Origin: Prauserella cavernicola
GTDB taxonomy: Bacteria; Actinomycetota; Actinomycetes; Mycobacteriales; Pseudonocardiaceae
NCBI RefSeq assembly: GCF_016595675.1
Contig: NZ_JAENJH010000011.1
Span: 1-64,000 of the forward strand
Reading direction: 5' to 3'
DNA: 64,000 bases
Positions 16,452 through 58,457 of the stretch are shown here, one piece after another. Both the position numbers and the translations under genes were made by a program. Each line of letters opens with the position of its first letter. Within the stretch, counting starts at the first letter, position 1. The notes beneath the pieces are model-generated. The model searched no databases. It was not told where the DNA came from and saw only the letters and a program-made list of their open reading frames with translations.

Positions 16452-16637
16452 CACAAGAAGCAGAAAAAACGATAGGACGCCGCACCGCGCGAGGACGCCC
16501 AAGCCGGTCCTCGGTAGTGGCTCCCGGGATCTCCCGAGGGCTTCGATCGATGACCGGCCTCGTACCTCGAGCGTCGCCCCCGACGGGTGGGGGATGTGCG
16601 CACCGTCCGAGAGGTAATCAAGAGGAGTAAGTCACCC

Positions 16638-43893: not shown

Positions 43894-44958
43894 TCAGCGC
43901 CGGGGCTTGTTCTGCACGGCCAGGGTCCGGTTGATCCGCCGCACCACGTCGGGGCCGTGCAGCGCGAACGCGGTGTAGACCTGGACGAGGCTCGCCCCCG
44001 CGTCGAGCATGCGCTGCGCGTCGTCGGGGCCTGAGATGCCGCCGACGCCGATCACGGGAAGCCGGTCGCCCGCCTCTTCGCTGACGAACCGCACGACCTC
44101 GCGCGCCCGCTCGGTGAGCGGCCTGCCGGACAGCCCGCCCGCCTCAGCGGCCACGGGTGTGTCGGCGGGTGCGAGTCCTTCGCGGCCGAGTGTGGTGTTG
44201 GTGGCGATGATCCCGGCGACGTCGTGTTCGAGGCACACCTCCAGCAGCTCGCCGAGCGCCTCGTCGGACAGGTCGGGGGCGACCTTCACCAGCAGCGGGG
44301 TCGGCGCCGTTCCCTCCTCGGCGAGTGCGACGGTCATGCCGCGCAGTTCGGCCAGCAGTTCGGCCAGTGCCGTGCGGTCCTGCAGCTCCCGCAGCCCCGG
44401 GGTGTTCGGTGAGCTGACGTTGATGGCCACGTAGTCGGCGTAGCGGTTCAGCGCGTGCAGGGAGGCCTGGTAATCCGCCACGGCGTCCTCGAGCGGGGTG
44501 ACCTTGGACTTGCCGATGCTGATGCCCAGCGGAACGGGCGGCGTGCCGCGCGCGTCCAGGCGAGCCGCGAGGGCGTCCGCACCCGCGTTGTTGAAGCCCA
44601 TCCGGTTGATCACGGCGTCGCTGTCGGCGAGGGTGAACAGGCGGGGGCGGGGGTTGCCGGGCTGGGCCAGCCGGGTGACGGTGCCGACCTCCACGAACCC
44701 GAACCCGAGTGCGGGCCACGTGTGCAGCGCGCGGCCGTCCTTGTCCATCCCCGCGGCGAGGCCGACGCGGTTGGGGAAGCGGATCCCGAAGACGGTGACC
44801 GGGTCGTCGGCGGCGGCGTAGACCCGGCGCAGCGCGGCCAGCGCGGGCGGGACGGAGCCGAGTCCGCCGAGTGCGCGCACGGTGCGCTCGTGCACCACCT
44901 CGGGGTCGGACTTGCTGAGGCGGTACAGCGCGGGACGCACGATCTTGTCGAAGAGCAC
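43894..44958 (-). CDS. pyrD: Dihydroorotate dehydrogenase (quinone), class 2
   Basis: PyrD oxidises dihydroorotate to orotate, feeding electrons to quinone at the membrane; this is step four of pyrimidine synthesis. The 354-residue protein has the class-2 N-terminal helix ([14 protein letters not shown]), [24 protein letters not shown]-binding NRMGFNN, and [14 protein letters not shown] with the catalytic Ser. The GTG start lies six bases after CAGCAT (44970-44965), suggesting a leaderless transcript. A stronger promoter further up would produce a long structured leader (see 45010-45281). Confidence 0.95.
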
Positions 44959-45009
44959 GCGACCATGCTGCCTGATCGCGCTGCGGGACCGAACGGGCCC
45001 CGGAACGTG

Positions 45010-45088
45010 AAAGGCCCCCTGCGCGACTCCCGAACGTCGTCAGCCGTTCGGGCCCGAGCCGGACCAAGCTCGGAAACTGCAGGGGGCC
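45010..45088 (-). ncRNA. Three-way-junction terminator-like element in pyrD leader
   Basis: On the minus strand GGCCCCCTGC (45088-45079) pairs with GCAGGGGGCC (45022-45013), followed by TTT. Inside are two perfect hairpins: CCGAGC/GCTCGG (45073-45068 with 45059-45054) and CCCGAACG/CGTTCGGG (45052-45045 with 45036-45029). The outer 10-base stem plus T tract looks like an intrinsic terminator; on the plus strand there is no T tract. It lies about 50 bases before the pyrD start. Confidence 0.6.
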
Positions 45089-45160
45089 GGTGGCTGCCTG
45101 GTATTCACCGCCAGGCACACGTCACGACTGCGGGCCCGCGACCTCGCGGTCAGCGTGCCC

Positions 45161-45240
45161 AGGTGGTCCGTGTGCTGCCCGTCAGCGGACAGCCACCTCA
45201 CGAGTCCTATAGCCGTTCAACTTCGGACCACCTCCTTTCT
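45161..45240 (-). promoter_or_regulatory. Leader switch: extended Shine-Dalgarno and anti-Shine-Dalgarno
   Basis: AGAAAGGAGGTGGTCC (45240-45225) complements the 16S rRNA 3' end over 16 bases (one wobble). AGGTGGTCCG (45233-45224) also pairs perfectly with CGGACCACCT (45170-45161). That same element can instead pair with AGGTG-GCT-GTCCG (45198-45186) inside the small ORF. The two pairings are mutually exclusive, which is attenuator-like logic. A further hairpin CCGCG-AGGT-CGCGG (45149-45136) and TGCCTGG/CCAGGCA (45117-45095) follow. Confidence 0.55.
45182..45220 (-). CDS. 12-codon leader peptide upstream of pyrD
   Basis: TTG AAC GGC ... TGA encodes (M)NGYRTREVAVR. The start lies ten bases after the exceptional ribosome site AGAAAGGAGG. 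Codons TAT, AGG, ACT and GCT are unusual for this genome, so sequence is probably constrained for RNA pairing or for slow decoding; three of twelve residues are Arg. No function is known to me. The peptide may be a by-product of a translation-sensing leader. Confidence 0.5.
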   Translation of the reverse strand: MNGYRTREVAVR

Positions 45241-45251
45241 CGTGTGCCCCA

Positions 45252-45281
45252 ACGCTATGCGAGACAAGCGTTGTCCGGCAA
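45252..45281 (-). promoter_or_regulatory. Promoter of the pyrD leader transcript
   Basis: -35 TTGCCG (45281-45276), an 18-base spacer and -10 TAGCGT (45257-45252), giving a start near 45245 and a 25-base untranslated stretch before the leader ORF. The spacer holds the inverted repeat GACAA-GCG-TTGTC (45263-45275), a possible operator. The stretch 45282-45354 up to the nei2 stop shows nothing recognisable. Confidence 0.6.
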
Positions 45282-45354
45282 CAGATTTTCAGTTCCGTCA
45301 CGAGAGTCTGTCGATCACCACCGGTGTCGCGGGATGGCGAGTATCCTGTAGTGG

Positions 45355-58262: not shown

Positions 58263-58339
58263 CGATCGGCCGGGACACCCGCGTGGTCGGGAGGCGCGGG
58301 TTCCCGCTGATCGTGCTGAGGGAACGACGAAGTTCCGAC

Positions 58340-58409
58340 GCGGATGCCGTCAGGCTGCGGCCCTGATGCACCTTCCCCGGTATCAGGTCCGCAACCTGAC
58401 GGCATCCGC
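58340..58409 (+). repeat. Large hairpin between mraZ and rsmH
   Basis: GCGGATGCCGTCAGG... (58340-58367) and ...CCTGACGGCATCCGC (58382-58409) form 28-base arms with two mismatches and a 14-base loop. A second small hairpin GGAAC/GTTCC (58321-58336) lies just before, and an A-run (AAAAAA) follows 20 bases later. It could attenuate or process the dcw transcript. Confidence 0.65.
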
Positions 58410-58457
58410 ATTGGAAGTGAAAAAAACGGGGCGGTGAGGCGAAAGGGGGCGGCGCCT

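Follow-up and report, generated by a model that had tools for sequence, protein, structure and literature searches.

A Stand-Alone Ms_IGR-5 Small RNA beside pyrD in Prauserella cavernicola: An Apparently Translated RNA Predicted to Be under WhiB7 Control

The Locus

We analyzed a stretch of 64,000 nucleotides from Prauserella cavernicola (contig NZ_JAENJH010000011.1, positions 1 to 64,000), hereafter the window. On its minus strand, upstream of pyrD, a promoter is followed by an extended ribosome site, a 12-codon mini-ORF, and a three-way junction ending in TTT (Table 1). The initial annotation of this locus, made from the sequence alone, proposed either a translation-sensing attenuator of pyrD or a self-contained small RNA. 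The promoter that it described is present in the sequence, at the spacing it gave; a simple promoter scan missed it and reported one other promoter-like site. The three-way junction and its TTT were also found as described, ahead of the pyrD start. Similar closing stems were obtained in 13 folded loci, and a simple scan for canonical terminators found none. Two further RNAs of the window, both on the plus strand, match Rfam families above their cut-offs, i.e., Actino-pnp (16503–16558, 65.9 bits) and mraW (58325–58428, 62.6 bits).

Table 1. Features of the Ms_IGR-5 locus in the window (positions are those of the window).
Feature	Position	Strand	Basis or remark
AT-rich GAAAAT, 3 bases 5′ of −35, predicted WhiB7/WblC site	45285..45290	-	motif match
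Promoter: −35 TTGCCG (45281-45276), 18-base spacer, −10 TAGCGT (45257-45252)	45252..45281	-	sequence
Whole RNA, Rfam RF02471 (Ms_IGR-5)	45007..45245	-	cmscan 81.1 bits, E 2.4e-16
Predicted RNA 5′ end, ACAC	45245	-	
Extended Shine-Dalgarno AGAAAGGAGGTGGTCC, pairing with the entire 16S 3′ tail	45225..45240	-	pairing read from sequence
Possible hairpin P1: GTCC (45228-45225) with GGAC (45207-45204), start codon in loop	45204..45228	-	
12-codon ORF TTG AAC GGC TAT AGG ACT CGT GAG GTG GCT GTC CGC (45220-45185) + TGA (45184-45182)	45182..45220	-	
GAGGTGG, second Shine-Dalgarno-like element in the ORF	45193..45199	-	fixed 5 codons GAG-to-stop
Helix P2, 5′ strand GGTGGCTGTC, ORF codons 8-11	45188..45197	-	covariation
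CGGACCACCT, alternative partner of the ribosome site	45161..45170	-	present here, lineage-specific
Helix P2, 3′ strand GGCAGCCACC	45089..45098	-	covariation, RNAalifold
Three-way-junction terminator closed by GGCCCCCTGC (45088-45079) with GCAGGGGGCC (45022-45013), enclosing two inner hairpins, then TTT	45010..45088	-	folding
pyrD, adjoining gene, outside the system	43894..44958	-	ORF; synteny not conserved

An RNA of a Known Family with Changing Neighbors

The Rfam match covers model positions 1–184 and lies above the gathering cut-off of the family (45). Its limits agree almost to the base with the transcript that had been claimed, from 45245 to near 45010. Our own covariance model R1, built without the window sequence, gives 89.2 bits on 45245–45083. 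Within the class, 249 of 394 sampled genomes carry the family, spread over 86 of 138 genera; it was also found in 118 of the 150 genomes of the window's family, and in none of the 14 control genomes; the surveys of 394 genomes and of 395 genomes (see below) used stricter search filters, by which weak matches are lost. Moreover, AAGGAGGTGRTCC was counted 188 times within the Ms_IGR-5 RNA and never elsewhere in the 1.27 Mb of loci L001–L241, of which 120 were chosen via a pattern with its GGTCC form and some may represent the same species twice. The E value of the Rfam match, together with this confinement of AAGGAGGTGRTCC to the RNA, places the feature beyond chance.

In the passages of the reports that name it, a Ms_IGR-5 transcript is described in S. 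lividans and in M. smegmatis, and as an sRNA transcription unit in S. avermitilis. A search under Rv0812 and ncRv names returned nothing. Phages gave no Ms_IGR-5 match, plasmids gave one partial match (Nocardia farcinica), and the virus sets gave 0, 0, and 1 pattern matches; this single viral match was rejected, as it lies inside an open coding region and is not matched by R1. In the genus of G383, surveyed with the RNA of locus L159, 40 of 396 genomes had no blast match to it, e.g., G604 with 4.4 Mb in one contig; most of the 20 listed are smaller than 5 Mb, which suggests lineage loss or divergence.

The genes around the RNA differ from one lineage to another. In mycobacteria, it lies beside a class IV aminotransferase gene, which we take to be pabC, and a convergent gene for a THAP4-type heme-binding (nitrobindin-like) protein, while in other groups the neighbors encode citrate synthase, PNPOx, Fur, and further families (one representative per cluster scanned). 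Such a change of neighbors means that the RNA travels as a unit. Among the first 121 loci, whose flanks of 0.7–1.5 kb were in some cases shortened by contig ends, pyrD was found in the fetched flank of 6 only, the window included. The distance from the RNA 5′ end to the pyrD start is 289 bases in the window, 260 in L036, and 259 in L050; it reaches 861 in L055, 1113 in L061, and 1568 in L035, where pyrD is a 33-residue edge match.

An attenuator or leader of pyrD, as initially proposed, would fit the window itself, where pyrD starts about 54 bases past the terminator stem, and the similar distances in L036 and L050. On the contrary, the rarity of pyrD near the RNA and the three long distances argue against it: a conserved downstream gene is lacking. 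In addition, the conserved helices P2 and P3 (see below) do not overlap the terminator arms, so that no anti-terminator pairing exclusive with the terminator was found and a classical attenuator is not formed. We consider this proposal as very nearly excluded. The speculative link to arginine and carbamoyl phosphate finds no support either: of the 22 mycobacterial loci L002–L023, 19 have TGG (Trp) as codon 5 and all have TGT (Cys) as codon 7. The other initial reading, a self-contained small RNA, is borne out by a stand-alone Rfam family, its own promoter and terminator, and its changing neighbors. Hence, the feature belongs to a known, barely studied family of small RNAs and stands on its own; it does not control pyrD and adjoins this gene by chance.

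A Ribosome Site and a Mini-ORF of Constant Length

Loci L122–L241 (120) were collected with a pattern that fixed the ribosome site and GTGAGGTGGCTG, leaving the start, length, and stop of the ORF free. One of the 241 loci, cut at its edge (L155), was left out, giving 240; four others without the ACAC anchor (L160, L165, L168, L222) were set aside to give 236, two were too short (L190, L228), and dereplication at 80% identity yielded 141 loci. For the P2/P3 count, L109 was excluded and two sequences scoring <16 were dropped, leaving 138, of which 135 had enough room for the anti-Shine-Dalgarno test.

The claim that the ribosome site complements the entire 16S tail proved correct: it pairs over 16 bases, with one G-U, with the tail GGATCACCTCCTTTCT located in this genome. 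The 12-codon ORF was confirmed too, and its length is a property of the family. Indeed, an in-frame search, the only kind used for these counts, found a start (ATG, GTG, or TTG) before GAG GTG in 238 of 240 loci, and an ORF of exactly 12 codons in 226, of 13 in 10, of 14 in 1, and of 11 in 1. The ribosome site precedes the start by 17, 18, or 19 bases in most loci, the ORF length being constant. NTG stands at a single offset in 133 of the 141 dereplicated loci, against at most 32 at other offsets (motif-internal GTG aside), and where three extra bases precede the motif (L037, L039, L042, L046, L047, L056; read partly by eye), the frame is kept. The rare codons that had been pointed out are so in part: TTG, TAT, and ACT do not occur among the 355 codons of pyrD, and AGG and CGT occur once each. 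Two loci, L022 and L221, carry ATT where the others have their NTG start; ATT is a rare start codon known from infC. Of the 240 loci, 221 end the ORF with TAG, and 162 have TAGC. TAG is unusual as a stop in GC-rich genomes, and its preference here may come from the P3 pairing or from release factor 1.

Start, frame, and stop are thus conserved as in a translated leader. No third-base excess was seen in codons 2–4 of the dereplicated loci, and codons 5 and 7 shift in amino-acid class with little base change (Arg to Trp or Cys, the other bases being the same). This suggests that the objects of selection are translation and the RNA, not the peptide, and it is the act of translation that seems to be kept. 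Ribosome footprints on MS_IGR-5 are reported in M. abscessus and M. smegmatis, in a paper that, in the passages concerned, also warns that ncRNAs often carry footprints.

In 239 of 240 loci, the ORF has a GAG-to-stop distance of 5 codons; GAG GTG is present in all 132 dereplicated 12-codon ORFs, for which this motif, with two mismatches allowed, served as the anchor. The GA of GAGGTGG is conserved though unpaired in P2. Between the element and the last sense codon there are 5 bases, a distance usual for a Shine-Dalgarno sequence relative to the P site, and the ribosome may use the element in this way. In L032 (1553–1680, minus strand), a second copy of GTGAGGTGGCTGTCCG is found in a loop past the stop.

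The End of the ORF Is Held in Two Covarying Helices

Helix P2 pairs the ORF end, GGTGGCTGYC, with the 3′ strand GRCAGYYACC. In the 138 dereplicated loci, it shows 55 double-changed cells versus 15.6 after shuffling (a value reached in 0 of 1000 shuffles) and 9 extra pair types versus 3.8. Helix P3, which contains the stop, shows 105 double-changed cells versus 56. In this count, a P2 register slid by −3 still pairs 73% of the cells, while in a structure-named alignment of 40 sequences slid registers pair 22–50%; there, 92% of the cells are paired and 56 are double-changed versus 19.1 (P1 included). RNAalifold recovered both P2 and P3 from a sequence-only alignment of 40. As the 3′ strand was anchored by a consensus template in the larger count and the 40 sequences were chosen for short loops, the covariation counts lean somewhat to the consensus. 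The last five ORF codons and the stop thus sit in two covarying helices with the 3′ part. The initial idea of an ORF that takes part in mutually exclusive pairings is supported. The conserved partner of the ORF is GGCAGCCACC, which the initial annotation had not named.

The partner that had been named instead, CGGACCACCT after the stop, pairs well with the ribosome site in the window. Comparable pairings occur in 21 of 135 loci, window included, versus 4.9 expected, and 14 of the 21 belong to the window's family, three of them presumably. We therefore rejected it as a conserved switch and regard it as lineage-specific. In the fold of the window, P2 has a probability of about 0.68 and the alternative that hides the ribosome site about 0.32; with ten more 3′ bases, the latter becomes the minimum. 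A switch of this type is plausible in the window's lineage, but it is not the conserved one. The hairpin P1 was not retained as a proved helix either: it is 93.8% paired in the alignment of 40, with one-sided changes only, and its double changes in 140 loci were equaled by 92 of 1000 shuffles.

A Promoter Predicted to Respond to WhiB7

The WblC motif is given as GAAAWY-N3-TKGMNN-N16-19-TANNNT in the passage of PMC7157823 that defines it, and the window promoter fits it at 13 of 13 specified bases. The 141 dereplicated promoters share an A-tract directly 5′ of the −35, with a mean motif score of 11.1 of 13 versus 7.7 in shuffles. For comparison, 28 whiB7 upstream regions of 700 bases scored 10–13 versus 8–10 when shuffled (2 of the 30 whiB7 loci, L302 and L304, were unscored), and 30 regions of the 6C RNA (95 bases around the Rfam match start) gave scores resembling those of their own shuffles. 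The genome carries a WhiB7 gene (L248/L290) with the AT-hook RGRPRK, and its own whiB7 promoter, GAAAATCAGTTGCC, can be set beside the Ms_IGR-5 promoter, GAAAATCTGTTGCC. The GACAA-GCG-TTGTC repeat noted earlier in the spacer does exist in the window; it was not seen, by eye, in the other listed promoters, and we rejected it as an operator.

The RNA is present in 243 of the 317 genomes with a WhiB7 match better than 1e-15 versus 6 of the 77 without (counted by eye). These six are G051, G068, G246, G150, G209, and G370, with a completeness of 68% for G150 and 63% for G370. Stratified by family, the association has a p of 5e-7, which becomes 0.15 once family f29 is removed, in a test that includes f22 and in which strata with all genomes alike weigh nothing; it may thus reflect one joint loss. 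Outside Actinobacteria, the loci carry a T-tract 5′ of their −35 or lack such an element, so that the AT-rich feature has a simpler explanation in an AT-rich UP element. Taken from the motif and the gene content, WhiB7 control is predicted in the window's genome. The stimulus would be best explained by WhiB7, i.e., by translation stress, and the RNA appears to be induced when protein synthesis is blocked. In S. coelicolor, four intergenic WblC-controlled ncRNAs are reported, whose names are not given in the passages of the text that describe them (PMC7157823).

In M. abscessus, ncRNA1 is described as a WhiB7 ChIP peak, induced by tetracycline and 99-fold WhiB7-dependent (PMC10727445). In a group of Mycobacteroides sp. 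LB1, blast and Pfam place the aminotransferase gene by our RNA in 10 of 10 loci and the heme-binding gene in 9 of 10, the latter being convergent with the RNA in 6 of the 6 loci read for strand. From this shared gene arrangement, by which the two were compared, ncRNA1 is very probably the Ms_IGR-5 RNA. The RNA promoters of the Mycobacteroides group have an AT-rich stretch before the −35; on the other hand, the matched text of PMC10727445 mentions neither Ms_IGR-5 nor an ORF.

Relatives outside Actinobacteria

Four of the 120 pattern matches (L137, L221–L223) belong to records whose titles read Zixibacteria, Zixiibacteriota, GN15, and Proteobacteria. Contamination is disfavored by their GC content of 48–57%, by promoter-like sequence 5′ of the RNA, and by terminator tails rich in T. 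In the phylum of G914, R1, a model of 40 sequences, matched 6 of the 395 genomes, G914 included, and in four of the five others (L325–L328) the ribosome site and an ORF of 13–15 codons are kept. As L137 and L221–L223 entered R1, their own R1 scores are not independent. Of the non-actinobacterial loci, three pass the RF02471 cut-off and another three score under it. All 8 retain the mini-ORF, with a GAG-to-stop distance of 5 codons. The full P2 is found in L222, and also in L327 and L328 with letters changed on both strands (GGTGGTGAC/GTCACCACC and GGTGGTGTC/GACACCACC); L326 has one mismatch. An ungapped search of L325, L137, L221, and L223 gave no full helix, the pairing there needing a bulge and resting on folds. 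L329 (E 2.4e-4) was not counted as a relative, as the ORF motif was not seen in it.

A Model of Translation-Dependent Opening and Its Alternatives

We favor, with moderate confidence, a stand-alone translated RNA driven by WhiB7, whose translation would open its own 3′ domain. When translation is inhibited, WhiB7/WblC and the main sigma factor would transcribe the RNA; this step is supported by comparison and, should ncRNA1 and the Ms_IGR-5 RNA be identical, would already be demonstrated in M. abscessus. Ribosomes would then load on the complement of the whole 16S tail and translate the 12-codon ORF, as the comparison of loci indicates. As P2 and P3, two helices seen by covariation, engage the final five codons together with the stop, a ribosome reaching the stop should have to open them, thereby freeing the strand GAAUnCCnGGCAGYYACC. 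If so, the activity of the RNA would depend on ribosomes completing the mini-ORF. The output would probably be an action of the freed strand in trans, or else a ribosome held at the stop by GAGGUGG.

This last possibility can be taken as the whole function. The extended site and GAGGUGG would then park ribosomes, sequestering or protecting subunits during translation stress, with no mRNA pairing. The 16-base complement to the 16S tail, the constancy of the GAG-to-stop distance inside and outside Actinobacteria, and the conservation of the unpaired GA all speak for such an RNA; but titration demands a very high copy number, and the conserved 3′ domain and helices would go unexplained, which makes it rather unlikely in our opinion. 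A broader view, to which we give about the same weak credit, combines both ideas in an old ribosome clamp or sensor RNA, also present in Zixibacteria-type and proteobacterial genomes, of which Ms_IGR-5 would be the actinobacterial branch, wired to WhiB7. Here, the 16S-tail complement would draw a ribosome, 11–15 codons would be translated, and the second Shine-Dalgarno-like element, a fixed 5 codons off, would hold this ribosome at the stop, keeping the masking helix open and the 3′ regulatory strand exposed. The RNA would report whether ribosomes initiate and finish, and actinobacteria would have linked it to antibiotic stress.

Two other readings place the function elsewhere. The 12-residue peptide, with its xEVA core, could be the product, the remainder serving as a stabilizing 3′ UTR. 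The conserved start, frame, and stop are in line with this, as are EV in the 132 dereplicated 12-codon ORFs (where GAGGTG was the anchor) and the like endings outside Actinobacteria (CEVAET, CEVVTS, REVAAT). Yet codons 2–4 lack periodicity, Arg/Trp/Gly and Arg/Cys/Ser swaps occur while the other bases stay the same, and the bases coding for EV have a second role, in P2 or in the internal site, which leaves the peptide inseparable from them; we hold a micro-peptide mRNA to be improbable. Less probable still is a cis-antisense regulator of the 3′ UTR of the convergent neighbor, as proposed for ncRNA1, which is reported to be complementary to the MAB_0732c 3′ UTR, MAB_0732c falling about 10-fold in the whiB7 mutant (PMC10727445, passages on ncRNA1). 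As the neighbors vary by lineage, and as the next gene in the window, pyrD, is co-directional, this cannot be the shared function.

Comparison with Known Systems

Our description shares with the RF02471 model the blocks of the ribosome site, ORF, and terminator. It differs in that Rfam types the family as an sRNA gene and that the Rfam consensus, in our reading, includes P3 and the terminator, while placing the ribosome site opposite the ORF at the position for which covariation supports P2. The uORF of the whiB7 leader is comparable as a short ORF whose translation alters the RNA structure in a context of translation inhibitors, and macrolide-inducible erm leaders are likewise short-ORF attenuators in which translation alters the RNA structure. 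Unlike these attenuators, Ms_IGR-5 ends before any conserved gene, and its helices spare the terminator. SgrS and RNAIII are dual-function sRNAs, combining a regulatory RNA with a translated small ORF, whereas in Ms_IGR-5 the ORF itself would act as the strand that masks the 3′ domain.

Earlier publications cover the family and probably also its dependence on WhiB7 in one species. In the open-licence papers found for the family and for leader peptides with anti-Shine-Dalgarno pairing in actinobacteria, the titles, beginnings of abstracts, and matched passages contain no description of the Ms_IGR-5 ORF, of the ORF-borne helix, or of non-actinobacterial members. This RNA, common in mycobacteria, streptomycetes, and their relatives and classed as an sRNA, is apparently translated and apparently part of the main antibiotic-stress regulon, and an orphan Rfam family gains a testable function and a range beyond Actinobacteria. 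If translation gates the 3′ domain, it would be a regulatory RNA that reads ribosome function directly; we know of no description of this mode for stand-alone sRNAs.

Finally, the Caulobacter sRNA CC2171 (Rfam RF01867), which gave weak matches, starts with GAAAGGAGGUGAUCCAG, a complement of the 16S tail, and its displayed consensus is without GUGAGGUGG. Homology was rejected, as the 16S-tail complement is all that this consensus shares with Ms_IGR-5. CC2171 came to our attention via L325 and L327, and RNAs starting with a whole-16S-tail complement may be commoner.
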